From Deltaproteobacteria bacterium (GTDB lineage: Bacteria; Myxococcota; B64-G9): DNA of 64,000 nt. Numbering within the stretch: position 1 is the first letter of the stretch; the number at the start of each line of letters is the position of its first letter. Below are positions 6,964-25,419 of the stretch, in pieces. A program made the translations under genes and the position numbers. The notes under the pieces were generated by a model. That model had not been told where the DNA came from. It worked only from the letters and a program-made list of their open reading frames with translations, and did no database searches. The stretch spans positions 1 to 64,000 of the forward strand of contig JAFGRB010000033.1 in the NCBI GenBank assembly GCA_016935365.1. The letters run 5' to 3'.

Positions 6964-9669
6964 TCAGTCGATCTCGCGGTAGCCTGTCACGGTCCACTGG
7001 CCACCGCGATGTGTGAATGTCACCTCGATCTCTTTGCGATCGGTCGGGCTCGAGAACAAGGACATGGGTTGCATGGCCCGTTGCTGGCTGGACTCGAACT
7101 CGGTGGCGCCAAAAGCGATGCGGGGATAGCTGCCGCCGGTCATCTGCCAGAGATCGTCTGCCTTGGCCTTGCTGAGGTGCTGGACCAGCCAGGGGAAGGT
7201 GGGTAGCTCCGGTGCCGAGTGTTTGCCGGAATCGAGCACCACCAGGCGCCGGAGCCGCTCGGGCAGAGTCTTCTCGACCATGGTCGCATAGCTGAATGCG
7301 AGCACCTTGAGCAGATCCTCGTCCCGTCTCGACCGCGCCGGGGCTGCCAGGGGATTCTTGTCCTTGCCGTCCGGCAGCCCGTCCCCATCCGAGTCGCGGC
7401 GCCGTGCGTTCGTGCCCAGGTGCTTCTCCTCGAAGTCCGTGAGCCCGTCGCCATCCGCATCGGCGAAGAAGTCCTGCAGCTTGTGCTTGAACACGCGCTG
7501 GAGCGTCTTGAAGCGGGGGCGCGAGGGGTTTGGAGAGCGCGCGAAGGTGCGGGTCAGGGCGATTGTGATGGCGCGACCGCGCACCTTGAGCGAAAAAGTC
7601 GGGGGCGGGACCTGGCCCTGGGGATCCGCGAAGCTGGTCAGGCCGGAGAAGACCGGCTCGTGCCACGTCCTGCCGTCCGCCGACCAGGTCAGGAAGAGAT
7701 CCATGTGGTTGCCCAGCCGGTCTTCGGCGAACAGGACCCAAACGCGATCCTGGTCGACTTCCTTGGCATACGGGTGCTGGGAGGAGCGCGCGCCTTCCCA
7801 GAAGGCCATCAGCGGCAGCTTGGGGCGCTGTCGCAGGCTTGCCGAGCGCAGACCCTCCAGGAAACCGGCGATGGCAGTCGGAGAGCCGTCGGCGAGCAAG
7901 GAGGCTGAGGCCAGCCACGCGGTCCGATGCTCGGCCTCCAAGAGCGCGATCAAGGGCTCCACGCTGCCGGGCACCTGGAGACCTCTGGCCAGCGCGGCCG
8001 AGAGCCTCTGCAGGTAGGGGTCTTCGTTCTTGAGACCCCAGAGAATGCCTCGGCCGTACTCCGTCTTGCCCAAGCGGTAGAGCGCCCTCGCCAGCACGAG
8101 CCGGGTCCACATGGCCGACTCGGACTCGATCAGCGACTCCAGCTTCGTCACGTAGCTCCGATCCAGGCTGTCGAAGAAGCGCACCGTGGGTCCATCCGGC
8201 GCGGGCGGGGTCTCGCGGAGGCGATCCATGAAGTACAGCAAGGCGCTGTGACATCCCGTGTGGGCGAGCACGTCGAGCAGGAGCCGGCGCTTCTCTCCGC
8301 TGGCCTTGTCGAGGAGCCTGAGCACCCGCTCGGCCGTCGGCTCTCCCCCTGCGCCGAGCGCCAGGATGCAGAGCTCCATCTCGTCTCGTACCTCGCTGTT
8401 CTGGCGGCTCTCGCGGTAGAGCTGCTTGAGCTGGCCGAAGAGCGGCTGGACCATGGACGGCGAGCGGAGCAATGCCAGCCCTTTGTAGATTCCGCGCCGG
8501 GCCGCGACGTGCGTTTCGATCGTCAGCCGCTTGACGAGGGCCTTGACTGCGCCTTCGCTGCCCACATGGCCGAGGGTGACCGCCGCAGCGCTGCGGGTGA
8601 GCGGATCTTCATGCTGGAGTGCGGCCAGAACCCGATCGCGTTCGGATTCGAGACGTTGGTAGGAGATGGCGCGCAGTACTGCGCGGCGGACCAGGCTCGA
8701 GCGGTCGTCGAGCGCCTTGCCGAGGGCTTCGGCCAGCGCGGGCGACCCGGTCCCCGGCTTGAGCTTGGCAACGGTCGAGGCGCTGCCGAGGCGCACCAGG
8801 GTTCGGGCGTCGCCTAGCCCGCGCGCGCAGGCGAGGGCTGCCTTGCTCCCGTGGCCGGTCAGCCAGCGCATCGGACCGCGCGAGTGGCGCAAGGCGGCCT
8901 GGTCGCCGGTCGCCTGGACGAGCAGATCCAGAGCGCTGTCATCACCCAGACGCGAGAGCGCCTCGGCGGCCTGGAGCCGACTCTCCAGGCCCTTGCGCCC
9001 GAGCTCCGCAGAGCGCTTCAGAGTCTTGACGGAAGGGTCCTTCGCGCCCGGCAGCCAGGCGGCCTTGGGGATGTCGAGCAGGATGTCCTGCAGGATGCGG
9101 AGCTGCTTGTCCGGCTCGACCCCGAGCTTCCTCGCCGCGTAGGCTGTCCAGACCTTGTCCGTCGCATGCGTGAGACCCTTGATCTCCTCCAGCGACTTGC
9201 GAGCCGATGTCGAGCCGGAGTCGCCGAGGGCCCTCAGCGCGCGAATGCGCACGGCGTGGCTGTCGGAGCGGACCGCGTCGACGATGACGCCGACATAAGC
9301 GCCGTAGTTCATCAGGCAGAGGGACTTGGCTGCCTCGACGCGCACGGCCGGCGACGTGTCCGAGGTCATCTCGACGAGTTTCTCGCGGACCCCCTTGGTA
9401 TTGTAATGCCACAGCACGCCGGCTGCCTCGGCGCGCGGGATCTCCTGCTGGCTGTCCGCCAGCTTGAGCAAGGTCGGCAGGACGCGGGGATCGGAGATCC
9501 GGACGAAGACTGTCAGGGCCATCTCGTAGTCGCGGATGTCCTTGCCGCTCAGAAGCCGGGATGCCATCCAGGCCACCCGGTCGGTCTCCCCACGAGCCTG
9601 CGGTATAAACGAGCAGACGCACAGCGCGCAGGCGAGGGCGGACAGCTTGAGTCGTCCGGGAGCGGCCAT
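6964..9669 (-). CDS. Secreted HEAT-repeat protein with DxDxDG Ca-binding-type motif
   Basis: Signal peptide MAAPGRLKLSALACALCVCSFIPQARG; HEAT-like repeats; DADGDGLTDFEEKHLGTNARRRDSDGDGLPDGKDKNP. Confidence 0.8.
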   Translation of the reverse strand: MAAPGRLKLSALACALCVCSFIPQARGETDRVAWMASRLLSGKDIRDYEMALTVFVRISDPRVLPTLLKLADSQQEIPRAEAAGVLWHYNTKGVREKLVEMTSDTSPAVRVEAAKSLCLMNYGAYVGVIVDAVRSDSHAVRIRALRALGDSGSTSARKSLEEIKGLTHATDKVWTAYAARKLGVEPDKQLRILQDILLDIPKAAWLPGAKDPSVKTLKRSAELGRKGLESRLQAAEALSRLGDDSALDLLVQATGDQAALRHSRGPMRWLTGHGSKAALACARGLGDARTLVRLGSASTVAKLKPGTGSPALAEALGKALDDRSSLVRRAVLRAISYQRLESERDRVLAALQHEDPLTRSAAAVTLGHVGSEGAVKALVKRLTIETHVAARRGIYKGLALLRSPSMVQPLFGQLKQLYRESRQNSEVRDEMELCILALGAGGEPTAERVLRLLDKASGEKRRLLLDVLAHTGCHSALLYFMDRLRETPPAPDGPTVRFFDSLDRSYVTKLESLIESESAMWTRLVLARALYRLGKTEYGRGILWGLKNEDPYLQRLSAALARGLQVPGSVEPLIALLEAEHRTAWLASASLLADGSPTAIAGFLEGLRSASLRQRPKLPLMAFWEGARSSQHPYAKEVDQDRVWVLFAEDRLGNHMDLFLTWSADGRTWHEPVFSGLTSFADPQGQVPPPTFSLKVRGRAITIALTRTFARSPNPSRPRFKTLQRVFKHKLQDFFADADGDGLTDFEEKHLGTNARRRDSDGDGLPDGKDKNPLAAPARSRRDEDLLKVLAFSYATMVEKTLPERLRRLVVLDSGKHSAPELPTFPWLVQHLSKAKADDLWQMTGGSYPRIAFGATEFESSQQRAMQPMSLFSSPTDRKEIEVTFTHRGGQWTVTGYREID

Positions 9670-9783: not shown

Positions 9784-11139
9784 TCAGGGCTCGGGGTAGA
9801 GGCGCTGCCCCTCATCGCGGATATTTGCGAAGGGCAGGGGATGGAAGAGCAGTTGCTCCTGGCCGTCGATGCGGATGCGGCCCGTGGCCCAGGGCGGATC
9901 GTTCATGGCGGCCTGGCTCGGCACCACGCGCTGTGCAGGGCCGGTCACGTGGCCGGGCAGGATGGCCTGCCAGGACCCTATCCGACAGACAAGCCCCTCA
10001 TCCGCTGGAGCGCTCGCCTCGGTACGGCGATCGAGATGCAGGACCGAGAGGTCGCTCGTCTCGCTGCGGGTCAGGATGCGCTCGACGACCCGCAGCGGGA
10101 CCCAGAGGGAGCCTATTTCGGTCTCGACGGGAATCGCCTCCAGGCTGGAGTGCCAGACGGGCAGCTCGATCACCAAGTGCTGGCCCGGGCTGGCTGCGAG
10201 GTCCTTCCAGATGCGCCCGCGCAGCTGCGAGACGTCCTCTCGCAGGTGCTTGTCGAGCTGCGGCGCCGGCCTCTCTTGCAGCCCGTCGTCCCAGACGTCC
10301 AGGACGAGCAGGGAGGCCTCCTGGCGTCCCTCGATGCGGATCGAGGCCACGGTGGCCTTGCCGAGCTTTCTCCTCTTGGCCGGGTCGTCGAGCCCGTGCG
10401 CCAGGATCTGCTCGAGCAGGGCTTCGAGGATCCGGGCCAGTGGCTCGAACTGCCGGAAGCCGACCTCCAGCCGCCCGCACTGGTACTGCAGGGAGACCGG
10501 CTTGGTGTGCTCTCTTCCCCAGCGGCGGCAGCGCTCGCGGAGGCGCAGCAGCGTGGGCGCAAGAGGAACACGATGCACCACGGCCAGCTCTTGGCCAAGG
10601 CGCCGGGCCACTCTGTGCAGGCGAGCCGCACACGCCATGGCCTGCCGCCGACAACTGCGCAGCTGCTCGCTCTCGATGCGCAGCTGGCCTCCCAGCTCCA
10701 AGGCCATCTCCGCGTCCGGCGACAGCGCGTGGCTGTCGGCCTGCAGGCCGAGGGATCCCAGACGGCGCGCTCCGTGGTCGAGCACACGGGAGAGCTGGTC
10801 CAGATCCCTTTCGGCCTGCTCGAGCTGCCCGAGCCATTCGAGCTCGGCTCGCTCGGCTGGCTCGGCCAGCGAGACGATCAGACCCGAGAGCCGCTCCAGC
10901 ACCTCCTCCACGCCCAAGGGGCTGCCTTTTTTCCGGTCGAGCTTGCTCTCTAGCTCGGCGAGCTGTTTCTCGACCGAGCCGAGGCCCGCGACGGTTGCGG
11001 CCTCGCGCAAGGTGAGCAGCCGAAAACGGATGCTGTCGGCCTCCGGTGGGGACTCCTGCTGGCCGAGCCATGCGAGCAGCTGGCGGATCTCCTCGGCCAG
11101 GGTGATCAGCACTTCGTGATGGTTGGGCAGACTTCTCAT
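9784..11139 (-). CDS. CheA-like protein with apparently degenerate HPt and HATPase motifs
   Basis: HPt-like helix RFRLLTLREAATVAGLGSVEKQLAELE; CheA P4-like LLEQILAHGLDDPAKRRKLGKATVASIRIEG..LLVLDVWDDG; CheW-like C-terminal part. ATGA overlap with upstream gene; only the distal part of track ORF 9784..13143 is real. Confidence 0.65.
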   Translation of the reverse strand: MRSLPNHHEVLITLAEEIRQLLAWLGQQESPPEADSIRFRLLTLREAATVAGLGSVEKQLAELESKLDRKKGSPLGVEEVLERLSGLIVSLAEPAERAELEWLGQLEQAERDLDQLSRVLDHGARRLGSLGLQADSHALSPDAEMALELGGQLRIESEQLRSCRRQAMACAARLHRVARRLGQELAVVHRVPLAPTLLRLRERCRRWGREHTKPVSLQYQCGRLEVGFRQFEPLARILEALLEQILAHGLDDPAKRRKLGKATVASIRIEGRQEASLLVLDVWDDGLQERPAPQLDKHLREDVSQLRGRIWKDLAASPGQHLVIELPVWHSSLEAIPVETEIGSLWVPLRVVERILTRSETSDLSVLHLDRRTEASAPADEGLVCRIGSWQAILPGHVTGPAQRVVPSQAAMNDPPWATGRIRIDGQEQLLFHPLPFANIRDEGQRLYPEP

Positions 11140-13301
11140 CCATCGCTCTCGGATGGCGCGGGCGAACCGCCGCGTATCCGGTCGCGGGCCTGCTCGGCGG
11201 TCTGCTGGATGCGGATCAGGATCTCGCTCGCATCGGCCGAGAGCATCTCGATGCCCTCGGTGGCTGCTATCTCGGTCAGCTGCCGGATGGCCTTCTCCAG
11301 AGCGACTTGCTGTCGGGCCAGCGTCCGGGTCAGGCTCGAGGGGATCGGTCGGCCGGTGTCGAACCGCTCGATCAAGCTGATGATCTCCTCGGCGGTCTCC
11401 GCCATGGCCTTGCTGCTGCGTCCCACCTCGGCGAGCGTATCCGCACTCCGGGCTCTCAGCGAGCGCAAGCGGTCCAGATTCGACTGCAGCTCGCGGACGT
11501 CCGCTGCGAGCGATGTCGCGCCGGGCTGGACGCTCGAGGCCTTGTCCCGCAGGATCTCCGAGCGGCGCTCGATGGAGAGCCTCAGGCGTTCCCAGGCATC
11601 GATGCTCGAGACGGATTGCTGGCAGGCCCGCAAGGTGCGCCCGAAGACCGTCTGGACTTGCTCCACCGATCGGGCGAGGTTGTTCAGGGACTCGGTGATC
11701 GTCTCGACCAGGTCGGAGGTCGAGCGCGACAGCCCGCGGGCGTCGTCGACCAGCATGTCGAGCCTTGCTGGCGACTCGGCGTCCGCGCTGACAGCCAGGT
11801 TCGTCGAGACGGCCTCGACCTCTCGCTGGAGAGCCTGGATCCGATCCGCGGCAGCGCTGAGCTCGGAGATGCGATCCGCCAGCAGGCGAAAGCCGCTGGA
11901 CAGGGCCTGGAGCGACTCGTCGATCTGCCGCCGCATGGCGGGATCGAAGGCGGGTGGTGCCTCGCGCTGAACCTCGTCGAGCGTATCGACGACAAGACGG
12001 CAGAGGCCCTCGATTTGGACGCCGAGCAGGTCCAGCAACCCGCCTCCGCCGGAGCTGCCCGCCCGATCGGCTGGCTCGTCCTGAAGAGGAGCGAGCTGGA
12101 GGGCGAGACCCTCGATCCGCGCTGCTGCGTCTTTCATATGGAAAGAGGCCTGGTGGAGGGTCTCCAGCCGCTCGGTCAGGGAGTCCAACAAGCGGTTGAT
12201 GGCCGTGGCCAGCTCCTCCAGGACGCCGGGCTCCACCTGGACCCGGAGGCTCAGGTTGCCCTCGGATGCGCGGTCGAGTGCGAGCTTGAGTGCTCCGATC
12301 CGATCCCGGACATGCGCAGCCGTGGCGTCGTGCTCGCCGAGCCGTCTCATGCGCTCGAGCAGGCGGGTGAGGCTGGAGGCGAGATCTTCGAGCAGGCCCT
12401 TGTGCTCGAAACGCTCCGGTCCGACGCGCTCCGGCTCCTCGACCGTCTTTCTCGCTGCGCGGGTCAGCATCTCGAGCGGCGAGATCATGCGGCGGTGCAG
12501 CCACCAGATCGCCAGGGCGGCCAGCAGGACGGCCAGGGCCGGCAGCGCCAGAGAGAGGCTGCGGGCCGTCAAGGAGAGCTGCTGGCTGAGCGACTGGATC
12601 GAATCGCTGACAACAGCCGTCTCGGGGACCTGGATCGGGGCGGAGCTGCTCTTCTCGACCGTGGGAGGCGGAACGAACACGCCCACCAGGTACGGCCCCG
12701 CGCCCAGGGTCCGCCACTGCCATCCGTGGCGGTCGGCCGGGGGGCTGGGGCGGTTCGCGGACCACTCCTTCGCCAGGCGGGGCATCGCCTTGGTGAGCGG
12801 ACCGCTCGCCTTGCCGGAGCGGGAGAGCAGAATGGTCGGCGGATCCGGGATGAAGACCACGGCCTCGGAGAAGGGATCCGTACCGGACTGCAGGGCGGCC
12901 TTGGCGGCCTTGTCCTCCGAGAGCTGCTCGGGCTTCTTGTCGGACAGCGGTAGCAGGCGGTTGCAGAGCTCGTCGAGACCCTCGCGTACACCGAGCTCGA
13001 ATCTCGCGATATGCAGCTTGTCGGCGACGGCCCGGTGCTGCCTGTCGAGATCCTCTGCCCGCCTGGCCAGATCGCGGATCGCATCGCGGACGGACTCGAG
13101 CCGGGTCGTGGTGGCCAGCTCGACATCGCGTACGTCGGAGCACAGGGGCAACAGGACCAGGGGGACGGCGAGGACGGGCAGCAAGGCCAGTCCGGCAGCG
13201 ATGGCGGCCAGCTTGATGCCCAGGCCCTTCAACCCGGGTTTGAAACGTGGAGGCTCCGCCTGGTCGTCGACGGGCTGTGCGTTGTCTCGGTCCGCCTGCA
13301 T
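11136..13301 (-). CDS. Methyl-accepting chemotaxis-like transmembrane receptor with atypical signalling tip
   Basis: Two TM segments flanking a ~180 aa extracytoplasmic region, HAMP-like region (WWLHRRMISPLEML), long coiled coil. Confidence 0.7.
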   Translation of the reverse strand: MQADRDNAQPVDDQAEPPRFKPGLKGLGIKLAAIAAGLALLPVLAVPLVLLPLCSDVRDVELATTTRLESVRDAIRDLARRAEDLDRQHRAVADKLHIARFELGVREGLDELCNRLLPLSDKKPEQLSEDKAAKAALQSGTDPFSEAVVFIPDPPTILLSRSGKASGPLTKAMPRLAKEWSANRPSPPADRHGWQWRTLGAGPYLVGVFVPPPTVEKSSSAPIQVPETAVVSDSIQSLSQQLSLTARSLSLALPALAVLLAALAIWWLHRRMISPLEMLTRAARKTVEEPERVGPERFEHKGLLEDLASSLTRLLERMRRLGEHDATAAHVRDRIGALKLALDRASEGNLSLRVQVEPGVLEELATAINRLLDSLTERLETLHQASFHMKDAAARIEGLALQLAPLQDEPADRAGSSGGGGLLDLLGVQIEGLCRLVVDTLDEVQREAPPAFDPAMRRQIDESLQALSSGFRLLADRISELSAAADRIQALQREVEAVSTNLAVSADAESPARLDMLVDDARGLSRSTSDLVETITESLNNLARSVEQVQTVFGRTLRACQQSVSSIDAWERLRLSIERRSEILRDKASSVQPGATSLAADVRELQSNLDRLRSLRARSADTLAEVGRSSKAMAETAEEIISLIERFDTGRPIPSSLTRTLARQQVALEKAIRQLTEIAATEGIEMLSADASEILIRIQQTAEQARDRIRGGSPAPSESDG

Positions 13302-13305
13302 GGGA

Positions 13306-13620
13306 TCAGACCTCCACTGCCAGGGCCGCGGGTAGGCTCTCGGCGACGGTACATCCGTTTCGCTCCGCCCAGAATCGGGTATGCGCGTGGAAGGAGCCCG
13401 CCAGGATCAGCGGCGGTCCGCGGCGCCGGCCGAGCGCCCGGGCGAGCGCAAAGGGATTGATGGAGCAGCCATCCTTGTGCCAGACGATCCGCTCGATCCG
13501 TTCGGACTCGATCCACTCCAGCACCGAATCGATCTGGTCGGCCGAGCGTAGGCGGACCTCGCATTCCGAAGCGCCTTCCAGCATGGCCTGGTCGGGCGAT
13601 TGGGTCAGGATCAAGATCAT
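13306..13620 (-). CDS. Small (104 aa) receiver-like protein, probably a pseudo-receiver
   Basis: MILILTQSPDQAML..RIERIVWHKDGCSINPF..PPLILAGSFHAHTRFWAERNGCTVAESL; stop lies 4 bp upstream of the MCP-like start. Confidence 0.5.
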   Translation of the reverse strand: MILILTQSPDQAMLEGASECEVRLRSADQIDSVLEWIESERIERIVWHKDGCSINPFALARALGRRRGPPLILAGSFHAHTRFWAERNGCTVAESLPAALAVEV

Positions 13621-13675
13621 GGGAACCCCGAAAATGCACAGGGCGTTCTTCGCTGCCGCTTTCGCGCGGGGAGAA

Positions 13676-14881
13676 TCACGACGAGCGTTTTCGAACGATC
13701 CGGCTCGACAGCAGGCGATACAGGACCTTGCAGACGTCGAAAGAGCTGCGCCTGCTCGCCCGGACAATGTCCTTGATGGTCCGCTTGCCGTTGACGAGGG
13801 CGAGGACCCTGTCCTCATCCTGATCGAGCTTGATCTGCTTGATGACGCCGGTGGCGTCCTGGCAGCGGGCCAGCACCATGTCGAACTCCCGGATCTCCTT
13901 CTCGATCAACCCCCATTCATCCACACGCCTGAAGCCCTCCATCAGGACTTGATCCACCGACAGCTCGAGCTCGGCCTCTCGGCTCTCGATGGGCAGGTTC
14001 TCGGTGACGTAGAAGGCGAACTCGCCCTCTCCCCATCGAAGCACCTCGTACATCAGCTCTTCGGTCTGCTGGCGCAGGGCCTGCTTGAGATCGTCCTGCG
14101 AGATGTGATTGAGCTTGACGAGCTGCTCGCCGAGCAGCTTGGATGTGCCCCGGCGGCTCTCCAGGAAGACCTCCAGGTCGCGGGCAGAGATGGCGCCGCT
14201 CTCGATCAGAAAGCGCCCCAGCAAGAACTCATCGTCCACGTGGGCGGCCCGGGCGAAGATCACCGCGCCGTCGCGCAGGAAGATCTCGAGATGGGCCTGC
14301 CCTCGAGCGATGTGCAGGATGCCCGTATGGGCCTGAAACTTGAGCAGCTGGAAGATCTCCGCGGCCGGAATCATGCCCAGGTTGCCGCGCAGCGCCACGC
14401 GCCCGCGGGGATCCGATAGGTCTTCCGAGGTGGGGAGATCTTCCGGCTTGCGCTCCCCGACGGGCAGCAGTGGATCGGGGTTCTCCTCGGCACCCGAGTC
14501 GATGTACTTGTCGATGGCATGCTGGATGACGGTGCTCAGCGCCTCGGGCGAGAAGGGCTTGGTGATGAAATCGACGATGCCCATGGTCTTGACGAGCTTC
14601 TCGCCCATCATCTCGCCCTTGGCCGACATCAGCACGATGGGGATCTTGTCGAGATCGTCGCTCTCCCCGAGCGCCTTGCACACCTGGTAGCCGTTCATGC
14701 CGGGCATGAGGAAGTCGAGCAGGACGACGTCCGGCTTGATCTCCCTGACCTTGGCGATGCAGCTCTCGCCATCGTGGATGGAGATCACCTCGAGCCCCAG
14801 CTTGTTCAGCGTGTGGCCGATGACTTTGTGGATGGTCGGGCTGTCGTCGATGACCAGCACACGCCGTGCGGTCATGTGCAC
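13676..14881 (-). CDS. Response regulator with C-terminal DUF4388 (PatA-type) region
   Basis: Intact receiver RRVLVIDDSPTIHKV..DVVLLDFLMPGMNGYQV..IVLMSAKG..DFITKPF; DUF4388-like RGNLGMIPAAEIFQLLKFQAHTGILHIARGQAHLEIFLRDGAVIFA. Confidence 0.85.
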   Translation of the reverse strand: MHMTARRVLVIDDSPTIHKVIGHTLNKLGLEVISIHDGESCIAKVREIKPDVVLLDFLMPGMNGYQVCKALGESDDLDKIPIVLMSAKGEMMGEKLVKTMGIVDFITKPFSPEALSTVIQHAIDKYIDSGAEENPDPLLPVGERKPEDLPTSEDLSDPRGRVALRGNLGMIPAAEIFQLLKFQAHTGILHIARGQAHLEIFLRDGAVIFARAAHVDDEFLLGRFLIESGAISARDLEVFLESRRGTSKLLGEQLVKLNHISQDDLKQALRQQTEELMYEVLRWGEGEFAFYVTENLPIESREAELELSVDQVLMEGFRRVDEWGLIEKEIREFDMVLARCQDATGVIKQIKLDQDEDRVLALVNGKRTIKDIVRASRRSSFDVCKVLYRLLSSRIVRKRSS

Positions 14882-14899: not shown

Positions 14900-15709
14900 T
14901 CAGAAAGATCGCACCTTGAGCTCGAGATCATGGGACACGGTCAGCACGCTGCTGTCTGCGACCTCGCGCCACTGGTGGCCTGGATCGCTCATGTCCGCGC
15001 CCAGCATGATGCCCTTGAACCTCAGATGGGCTTCCTTGCTCTCCTCGTCGCAGTCGACGTGCTTGCAGCTCTGGATGCCTTCCCGATGCGAGTAATGCAT
15101 GGGGATCCCACGGCAGACCGCGGCCATGACCTGGCCGTTGGTGGCCAGCATGGCGAAGGTCGACTCCTTCTTGTCCGCTCTATGCTCATCCGCGAACGCG
15201 ACGAGCTTCAGCAAGTAGTCGGCCAGGCTGCCGGCCGGCAGCTCGAGATCGTTGAGCTTGCCATCCTTGAACAGCTCGTCGAGCAGCCTGTGGAAGGCGA
15301 GCTCGCTCTCGGTTTCGCCACGGACGTTACGGGCCAGGAAAGGCGGCAGCGCGCGGAGGATCTCTTCGCGGTGCTCGTCGAGCCCGGAGAGCGTCCCCAC
15401 GTGGGCGAAGAGCCAGCGGCGGAAGCGGAAGGGATGGGTGTTGGCGTCCTTCCAGGCGCCCACGGTGCCGCGCCGGACGTGAACCAGCAGCACGTTGGAG
15501 CGGATCCCCTCGACCAGCTCGCGAAAGTCGATCTGGGAGAGGAGATCCGAGGGGCGTTTTCTCAGCAGCGGGTCGTCGCCGCTGTAATAGCCGACGCCCA
15601 CTCCGTCGTGGCGATCGTCCCGGGCCAGGCGCAAGGACTCGTTGACGTCCTGTATGGCGCACTCCAAAAGGTCCTCGTCGTTGCACATCAGGCCCAGCAT
15701 CCGGCACAT
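14900..15709 (-). CDS. Class II glutamine amidotransferase
   Basis: MCRMLGLMCN with catalytic Cys2; HDGVGVGYY; NVLLVHVRRGTVG; NTHPFRFRRWLFAHVGTL. Confidence 0.8.
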   Translation of the reverse strand: MCRMLGLMCNDEDLLECAIQDVNESLRLARDDRHDGVGVGYYSGDDPLLRKRPSDLLSQIDFRELVEGIRSNVLLVHVRRGTVGAWKDANTHPFRFRRWLFAHVGTLSGLDEHREEILRALPPFLARNVRGETESELAFHRLLDELFKDGKLNDLELPAGSLADYLLKLVAFADEHRADKKESTFAMLATNGQVMAAVCRGIPMHYSHREGIQSCKHVDCDEESKEAHLRFKGIMLGADMSDPGHQWREVADSSVLTVSHDLELKVRSF

Positions 15710-15841
15710 GCGAGCCTCCTTGGGAGAAGACGTCCCGGATGACAAACGCTACCGGATCGGGGCTTCGCGATCAAGCAAAACCCCATCGTCGGGAGAGGCG
15801 GGAGCTGCGAGCAGCCGGCTTCGCGCGGGCGGCGCCGAGGT

Positions 15842-19987
<4,146 letters not shown>

Positions 19988-22995: not shown

Positions 22996-25419
22996 TTGCC
23001 CAAGGGAAAGGACACACCCTTCGGTCGAGTCACGGTCGAGAAGGATCGCTTCGTCGTCCAGACCCAGTTCGCGACGCCTCCGGCCTTCGTCGAGGGCTAC
23101 CGGACCGCGGTCGACGACAAGGGCATCCTCCTGCCGGACACGGGCGAGGTGGCGCCCGGGGCCCAGCTGGTCCTGGACATGCGCATCGCCGGGGGCCAGA
23201 GCGTCTTTCTGGCCACGGGCGAGGTCCGCAGCCCGCCCGATCTCCCCCCGCAGACCATCTACCTCCAGTTCAAGTCCATGGACGCCGCGAGCCAGCAGCT
23301 CCACAAGCAGATCCTGCTCGCCAGGGCCCAGGCGGCGAAGCCCAAGGCGCGGCCGGCGCCGGCTGCGGCTTCAGGCGCGCCAGCGGCCGCCGGCGGAACG
23401 GCCGAGAAGGCGAGCAGCGTCGGCCGGATGAAGCCGGGTGCTGCCGGGGCGCGCTCGACGGGCGACTCGGCCACCTCCCACCACGCCGTGATGTCCGAGC
23501 GGGCGCAGCGCGCCCTGAGCGACAGGCGCTACCTCGGGGCGCTGGCCGAGAGCATCAAGCGGATGGTGCTGGTCGAGGAGAGCGGCGGGGCCACGCCAGC
23601 CGGGCCGCTGCCCTCCCAGGTCGAGGGGCCGATCGTGGGCATCGACCTGGGCACGACCAACTCCTGCTGCGCCATGGTCAAGGAGGGCAGCCAGAACCCC
23701 TTCGTCATCCCCTCCCGCCGCGGGCACAACACCATCCCGTCGGTGGTGGCCCTCGATCCGATGGGCGAGGTGCTGGTGGGCAGCGCGGCCAAGGCCCAGA
23801 TGGAGATCAACCCGGCGCGGACCATCTACGGGAGCAAGCGCCTGGTGGGCAGACCCTTCGACTCGCCGGTCGTCAGCCAGGTGCGCGATCGCTTCCACTA
23901 CGAGATCGTGGCGGGCGCGAGCGGGGAGGCGGCGGTCCGGATCGACAAGCGCCTGCTGAGCCTGGAGGAGGTGGCTTCCTACATCCTGATGGACATCCGC
24001 AACACGGCCCAGGAGTACCTCGGCAAGCTCGTCGAGCGGGCGGTCATCACCGTGCCGGCCTACTACAACGAGAACCAGCGCAGCGCCGTGCGCAAGGCGG
24101 GCGAGCTGGCCGGCCTGTGGGTGGAGCGGATCGTCAACGAGCCCACCGCCGCGGCCCTGTCCTACGGCTACAAGCGCAAGGCCGATAGCCAGCGCTTGCT
24201 GGTCTACGATCTCGGCGGGGGGACCTTCGACGCCTCGGTGCTCGATCTCCACGGCGAGGTCTACGAGGTCCTGTCGACGGGCGGCGATACCTTCCTGGGC
24301 GGCGTCGACTTCGACACCCAGCTCATGGATCACGTGCTGATCGAGTTCCAGCTCGACCTCGGCCGGCTGCCCGAGATGGAGCGGGTCGCCTTCCTGCGGG
24401 TGCTCCAGGCGGCCGAGTTCGCCAAGCGCACGCTCAGCAGCAAGAACGAGGTGGAGATCCGCCTGCCCTTCATCGGGCGGGTCGACGGCAGCCCGGTCAA
24501 CCTCGAGGTGAAGGTCACCCGCCAGACGATGGAGGAGCTCGTCCGCCCGCTGGTCCAACGCACCCTGGACGTCTGCGATGCGGTGCTCGCGGAGCGGAGC
24601 ATGAAGCCGGCCGACATCGACGACATCCTGCTGGTGGGCGGCCAGACGCGCATGCCGCTCGTGCGGCAGATGATCCAGGAGCACTTCGGCAAGGAGCCGC
24701 TCAAGGGCGTGCACCCGGACGAGTCGGTGGCCACGGGCGCGGCCTTGCTGGCCAAGTCGGTCGACGAGCCGGGCAATCTGAAGCTGGTCGACGTGCTGCC
24801 GATCTCGATCGGGGTGGGCGTGCCCGGCGGGACGCTCAGGCGGCTCATCTCGGCCGGGACCACCCTGCCGGCCTCGCGGACGTACGGCTTCTATACGTAC
24901 TTCAACGGCCAGACCGAGATGTACCTGCCCGTCTACCAGGGCGACTCCACCCAGGTGGATCAGAACGAGTCGCTCGGCGTGGTCGAGCTGGAGGGCATCC
25001 CTCCCGGTCCGGCCGGATCGAAGATGATCGAGATCACCCTCAGCCTCAACGCCGAGGGCCTGCTGGCGGTGGCGGCCAAGGAGCGCGGGGGGGCGCAGCT
25101 GGCGGATGTCTCCCTGCGCACCTACGCGCGGATTCCAGGCGCCGCTGCGGCGGCCTCGCAGGCCGCCGCCCAGCCCGCCCCGCAAGCCGCGCCCCGGCCC
25201 GCGGCGCAGCCCGCGGCGCAGGCTGCGGCACCGTCGGCGTTCTCCGCGGCGCCGGCGGCCGCGGGCGACGACACGCTACCGCGCCAGACGGCCACCTTGC
25301 CCCAGACCGTCCGGCGAAGGCGGCAGCCAGCCGCGCCGGGGCCGCGCGCCGCGCGCCGGCAGGAGTCGCCGCGGAGGGGATTATGGGCCTTCCTGAAGAG
25401 GCTCTTCGGCCGCAGATGA
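22996..25419 (+). CDS. Hsp70/DnaK-family protein with N-terminal PilZ-like domain and basic C-terminal tail
   Basis: TTG start; DnaK motifs IVGIDLGTTNSCCAMV, NEPTAAALSYGYKR, LVYDLGGGTFDASVLDL, LLVGGQTRMPLVRQM; tail ..RGLWAFLKRLFGRR. Confidence 0.88.
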   Translation: MPKGKDTPFGRVTVEKDRFVVQTQFATPPAFVEGYRTAVDDKGILLPDTGEVAPGAQLVLDMRIAGGQSVFLATGEVRSPPDLPPQTIYLQFKSMDAASQQLHKQILLARAQAAKPKARPAPAAASGAPAAAGGTAEKASSVGRMKPGAAGARSTGDSATSHHAVMSERAQRALSDRRYLGALAESIKRMVLVEESGGATPAGPLPSQVEGPIVGIDLGTTNSCCAMVKEGSQNPFVIPSRRGHNTIPSVVALDPMGEVLVGSAAKAQMEINPARTIYGSKRLVGRPFDSPVVSQVRDRFHYEIVAGASGEAAVRIDKRLLSLEEVASYILMDIRNTAQEYLGKLVERAVITVPAYYNENQRSAVRKAGELAGLWVERIVNEPTAAALSYGYKRKADSQRLLVYDLGGGTFDASVLDLHGEVYEVLSTGGDTFLGGVDFDTQLMDHVLIEFQLDLGRLPEMERVAFLRVLQAAEFAKRTLSSKNEVEIRLPFIGRVDGSPVNLEVKVTRQTMEELVRPLVQRTLDVCDAVLAERSMKPADIDDILLVGGQTRMPLVRQMIQEHFGKEPLKGVHPDESVATGAALLAKSVDEPGNLKLVDVLPISIGVGVPGGTLRRLISAGTTLPASRTYGFYTYFNGQTEMYLPVYQGDSTQVDQNESLGVVELEGIPPGPAGSKMIEITLSLNAEGLLAVAAKERGGAQLADVSLRTYARIPGAAAAASQAAAQPAPQAAPRPAAQPAAQAAAPSAFSAAPAAAGDDTLPRQTATLPQTVRRRRQPAAPGPRAARRQESPRRGLWAFLKRLFGRR

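Follow-up and report, generated by a model that had tools for sequence, protein, structure and literature searches.

A predicted kinase-dead CheA homologue in a conserved, putatively PATAN/DUF4388-class chemosensory operon of Myxococcota

Introduction

Among the described systems, the PATAN operons of cyanobacteria (pix/tax/hmp type; Mastigocoleus testarum) come closest to the locus reported here, and they share with it the gene order DUF4388 plus receiver (REC), small receiver, (CheW), MCP and CheA. DUF4388 (PF14332) is taken here to be the PATAN domain, a view to which the shared operon context also contributes. The locus lies in the window, i.e. the whole stretch of 64,000 nucleotides of myxococcal DNA that was analysed, and encodes four proteins that we name A to D. 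It differs from the cyanobacterial operons, in which CheW is present, by having no CheW and by the degeneration of its receptor tip and CheA. Moreover, the cyanobacterial proteins are of the DUF4388-REC (PATAN-REC) type whereas A is reversed, REC-DUF4388, and D is without the C-terminal receiver of the cyanobacterial CheA. PATAN regulators have been found to bind PilB in Synechocystis (PMC10519157). No paper joining DUF4388 with chemosensory systems or with Myxococcus was found in the literature searched.

Two further systems resemble the locus in their CheA-related proteins. The kinase domain of CheA3 from Rhodobacter sphaeroides is, like that of D, missing helices and ATP-binding residues (PMC10542144). 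However, CheA3 possesses a phosphorylated Hpt and a partner, CheA4, in its operon, and D has neither. In Pseudomonas aeruginosa, FimL is related to the N-terminus of ChpA and recruits the response regulator PilG together with ChpA (PMC10519157); it is comparable to D in being CheA-related and in recruiting a regulator, as D is proposed to do below. FimL resembles the N-terminal part of ChpA only, whereas D keeps P3-P4-P5 and adjoins a receptor gene of its own.

Results and discussion

Operon layout and conserved neighbourhood

Four genes on the minus strand fill positions 9784-14881 of the window exactly. In transcription order they encode A (receiver-DUF4388; 13676-14881, GTG start, 401 aa), B (small pseudo-receiver; 13306-13620, 104 aa), C (MCP-like membrane receptor; 11136-13301, 721 aa) and D (pseudo-CheA; 9784-11139, 451 aa). 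A gap of 55 bp separates A from B and one of 4 bp separates B from C, while C and D overlap by ATGA, the stop and the start. A sequence-only reading of this DNA had described a tight minus-strand operon of chemosensory origin, with a degenerate receptor, kinase and small receiver and with a convincing phosphorylation site in the first protein only. This description agrees with the Pfam and residue checks given below, since A alone among the four proteins passes Pfam cut-offs and has a complete site, the site residues are lost from B and D, and the tip of C is eroded. No match to a sigma-70 promoter was found at the operon, where terminator-like sites occur at chance level, and Rfam gave no match.

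The sample of the class consists of nine genomes of uncultured organisms, of which the identified ones are metagenome assemblies, and the relationships of C and D among them rest on profiles. Searches for D at the family, order and class levels returned the same nine genomes each time, all of them with a full-length D; of the 195 phylum genomes searched, the remaining 186 yielded neither a C nor a D of this type. The order A-C-D is kept in 8/8 class genera with sufficiently long contigs, out of nine genera in total. Conservation of the four-gene order, on which the sequence-only reading had made its proposal depend, was thus confirmed with B as an optional member, found in four of these genera and missing in four.

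The conserved block is larger than four genes, and reads amidotransferase - A - (B) - C - D - HEAT protein wherever the contig of a relative reaches. The gene directly upstream of A (14900-15745, minus strand) encodes a class-II glutamine amidotransferase (EgtC-like; GATase_4, 66.4 bits), the synteny of which extends to seven relatives and also to families f7 and f25. Directly downstream of D lies the gene for E (6964-9669, minus strand), a secreted-looking HEAT-repeat/TSP3 protein (HEAT_2, 101.6 bits) that occurs in the same 9/195 genomes of the phylum as D. The amidotransferase and E may belong to the system, for example with E partnering C in the periplasm.

D is a CheA homologue with a disabled kinase domain

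D has no Pfam match at all, its CheW-like P5 being not above the cut-off, and thus escapes CheA collections built on the Pfam domain; weak NCBIfam CheA matches cover about 80-120 residues. A D profile from all nine genera, aligned with 11 canonical CheAs encoded in these genomes, gave an hhalign E of 5.8e-22, spanned residues 6-359 collinearly through P1, P3, P4 and the start of P5, and also matched the sequences of CheAs with solved structures (best E 1.7e-18). The AlphaFold2 model of D (pLDDT 86, pTM 0.80) has CheA core-unit chains as its top structural matches (Foldseek E 2.3e-16). The P4 fold (residues 190-329; 10153-10572, minus strand) superposes on CheA P4 with Z 17.7 and an rmsd of 2.1 A over 134 residues, and P5 is modelled as a beta-barrel. 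As judged from sequence and model together, D is a CheA homologue with the homologous P3-P4-P5 core that marks CheA. The nine D proteins form one clade in the tree (99/99), apart from 22 canonical CheAs and behind a long branch (1.96).

In the alignment to canonical CheAs, Leu42 of D (11014-11016, minus strand) occupies the column of the phospho-accepting His, which reads L, R, R, Q, H, R, R, H, Q in the nine D proteins. The column of the N-box Asn reads Q, Q, R, D, Q, N, Q, Y, E, with Gln in the window. An intact Hpt His together with the N-box Asn, which had been named beforehand as evidence against a degenerate CheA, is therefore absent from the window, where neither residue is present. His is kept by two of the nine members and Asn by one, each alone, and the two His-keeping members read HTLRE, not HTLKG. 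The second Gly of G1, the ATP lid, the F-box and the G2 box are absent in 9/9 members, with the F-box/G2 block deleted between G1 and the last P4 strands; all these residues and boxes are kept in 11/11 canonical CheAs. D lacks both the functional ATP site and, in the window, the P1/Hpt His of CheA kinases. Because the P1 His and N-box Asn are lost and the lid, F-box and G2 box are deleted, D is predicted to be kinase-dead, in that such a protein cannot act as a kinase by the known route.

C and B as probable degenerate receptor and receiver

Two hydrophobic segments (judged by eye), a periplasmic part, a HAMP-like segment and a coiled coil make up C. Pfam gave no MCPsignal (PF00015) match for it, only coiled-coil noise, and a HAMP match in 3/8 C members. 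The C profile nevertheless aligns to canonical MCPs with an hhalign probability of 96%, and the signalling tip is eroded, with STNLA-AAEA aligned to the MCP tip TNLLALNAAIEAA. The structure model of C is weak (pLDDT 69), and its closest structures are MCPs. Screening of the 195 genomes with the C profile returned the nine class genomes and one other protein, the MCP of G009, a genome from another family of the same phylum. As a control for coiled-coil bias, reversing the columns of the C profile abolished all matches in the proteins of G009, G010 and G015, in which the true profile scored 85, 28 and 32 bits, respectively.

B has no Pfam or NCBIfam match. None of the four copies has the acidic pair, and three are without the phospho-Asp; the copy in L039 may retain D at the phospho-Asp position (judged by eye), and the window copy has neither the pair nor the phospho-Asp. 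Its pattern is receiver-like, with INPFALARxL where a receiver has MNGYQVCKAL. The register to the A receiver is weak (hhalign probability 4.9%), and the receiver identity of B is argued from the register and not from the profile.

Origin of the locus

The A orthologue in G009 (L210) is followed by an MCP and then by a CheA, on the same strand and in the same order as in the window. This locus differs from the window in that its MCP and CheA are intact, the CheA carrying an intact Hpt and a receiver, and in that neither B nor an adjoining HEAT gene is seen. MCPsignal, HAMP, Hpt, HATPase_c, H-kinase_dim, CheW and receiver domains all score above the Pfam cut-offs, and the CheA motifs HTLKG, RNAVAHGIE, DDGSG and GHGVGLD are intact. 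Since the MCP of G009 is the sole match of the C profile outside the class, the two loci are homologous; the dead version would most simply derive from a live operon, and the intact locus provides a direct before/after comparison. Sequence comparison did not single out the G009 CheA as the ancestor of D (49 bits versus up to 80 bits for other CheAs), and descent from exactly a G009-type CheA rests on synteny. The G009 CheA (L210:3412-6510) also has a long N-terminal part before the Hpt, seemingly made of one or two Hpt-like regions that lack the His, as in ChpA.

Mastigocoleus testarum has four operons of DUF4388-REC, REC, CheW, MCP and CheA in this order, which is the window order once CheW is subtracted and links DUF4388 with the PATAN regulators that serve type-IV-pilus chemotaxis. 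The window follows this order without CheW and with degenerate B, C and D. The intact A-MCP-CheA locus of G009, the match of the C profile to it and the cyanobacterial gene order are the grounds on which we regard the operon as probably derived from a chemosensory operon of the type-IV-pilus class (PATAN/DUF4388) through loss of kinase function.

Other relatives keep parts of the locus. G015 has A, the amidotransferase and a C-like membrane protein, with no CheA seen, and in G010 A is found with a C-like protein at the contig end. In family f7 (L222 in G015 and L219 in G016), the gene after the amidotransferase encodes a DUF4388 protein with EP in place of DD in its receiver, which falls below the Pfam cut-off; here the locus has either decayed further or been rewired in another way.

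A decaying relic, in which A alone matters and C and D are on their way out, would be compatible with the f7 genome that has A and a C-like protein without CheA, and with the fact that C (23-36% identity across genera) and D (24-46%) diverge much faster than A (64-77% across eight genera). However, C, D and B are under purifying selection at the protein level, which argues that they are not a decaying relic. Identities at codon positions 1, 2 and 3 are 0.46, 0.54 and 0.33 for D and 0.42, 0.52 and 0.35 for C, versus 0.48, 0.60 and 0.36 for canonical CheAs, with third positions near the chance level throughout, a pattern typical of selected proteins. The frames are moreover intact in all nine genera, the HEAT partner E shares the distribution of D, and the model of D is confidently folded. 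We consider decay of the locus very improbable. A CheA that has lost catalysis but persists beside its receptor and output in nine genera represents a natural split between the scaffold and the enzyme role.

A retains an intact receiver

Both domains of A score far above the Pfam cut-offs (Response_reg 85.8 bits, DUF4388 98.6 bits). D12, D13, D56, S86 and K108 of its receiver site are kept in 8/8 genera, and A thus combines a REC with DD, D, S/T and K with a DUF4388, on which basis it is assigned as a PatA-like/PATAN response regulator with an intact receiver. Orthologues of A extend beyond the class, and most of those without a CheA seen nearby also keep an intact site. Because the site is conserved in all eight genera and intact in related genomes with no CheA seen nearby, A probably receives its phosphate from a kinase outside the operon. 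Of the 26 DUF4388 matches in the genome, A scores best.

The sequence-only reading had further suggested that the whole system is phosphorylation-independent, so that A, B, C and D would signal by conformation and binding and the receiver of A would be used unphosphorylated. The degeneration of B, C and D alike is in its favour, and so is a myxobacterial precedent, FrzS, whose pseudo-receiver acts by binding SgmX (PMC11580455). The conservation of the five receiver-site residues in A does not support this extension, and the f7 receiver has decayed where no CheA follows A in G015, which indicates that an A-type site can be lost when unused. We therefore view full independence of phosphorylation as unlikely. 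The scaffold-like role that was proposed along with it is supported by the loss of catalytic parts with maintained folds, gene order and selection.

Other chemosensory systems in the genome

No CheW-domain or MCPsignal match was found on the contig of the operon (C36). The earlier observation that no further CheW, CheR, CheB or CheY is seen is valid for this contig as regards CheW but not for the genome, where CheA, CheW, CheR, CheB and CheY are encoded elsewhere. Two other che systems, on contigs C95 and C292, have intact CheA, CheW and MCP. The cluster on C95 (L257, G000:C95:5001-25000) consists of CheY, CheA, two CheW, an MCP, a HEAT-repeat protein, CheR, CheB, a GAF protein and CheY; a PilB/PilT-type ATPase is also encoded on this contig, on which no DUF4388 regulator was found. 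The C95 CheA groups with the CheAs of cyanobacterial PATAN operons in the tree (89/89).

Given the intact CheAs in the genome, D might operate in trans, either forming mixed dimers with a canonical CheA of its own cell or serving that CheA as a substrate. The P3 and P5 folds are kept, two of the nine members have the P1 His, and CheA3 of R. sphaeroides, with its non-functional kinase domain, works with CheA4 in this way (PMC10542144). However, the P1 His is missing in 7/9 members, the operon is without a partner CheA, and Hpt1 of CheA3 is intact while that of the window D is not. A CheA3/CheA4-like arrangement appears distinctly unlikely to us.

A receptor-controlled scaffold as the proposed function

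We lean slightly towards a model in which C and D form a scaffold that holds A under receptor control, a kinase from outside the operon phosphorylates A, and the output is of the pilus class. C would sense via its periplasmic part and pass a conformational signal through the HAMP-like and coiled-coil segments to D, with which we infer it to be in contact. D would be a dimeric protein of the CheA fold that neither binds ATP nor carries phosphate, and would hold and present A, perhaps also B, at the membrane or pole. A would be the output, with a receiver that remains a phospho-switch and takes its phosphate from a kinase elsewhere in the genome, the first candidate donor being the intact C95 CheA. 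The DUF4388 of A would act on the pilus or polarity machinery, and C and D would control the location and the amount of available A. Points against this reading of the operon, as a scaffold of PATAN-class origin, are that the D profile scores the G009 CheA no higher than other CheAs, that C is only weakly MCP-like by fold, that A has its two domains in the reverse order of cyanobacterial PATAN-REC proteins, and that two of the nine D proteins keep the P1 His. The data suggest that D is now a docking platform handing signals to an intact pilus-type output protein. It is doubtful, though conceivable, that the locus represents a pseudokinase pathway kept throughout the class, with the signal passing from receptor to regulator via a CheA-shaped scaffold and no phosphotransfer inside the complex.

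PilB was found in 9/9 class genomes, in eight of them above the curated cut-off, and its presence makes control of pili by the operon possible. The locus also hints at how myxobacteria may regulate DUF4388 (PATAN) outputs; in cyanobacteria, this domain binds PilB, the motor of the pilus (PMC10519157).

Neighbouring genes in the window

A 1381-aa protein encoded at 15842-19987, adjoining the amidotransferase on the same strand, has thrombospondin type 3 repeats, a TIG domain and MopE-like metal-binding motifs. Matches to PF10712 (NAD-GH) often are antisense readings of another gene. An ORF on the minus strand at 23371-25185 matches this family with 269.7 bits, and it is overlapped by a long plus-strand ORF at 22996-25419.
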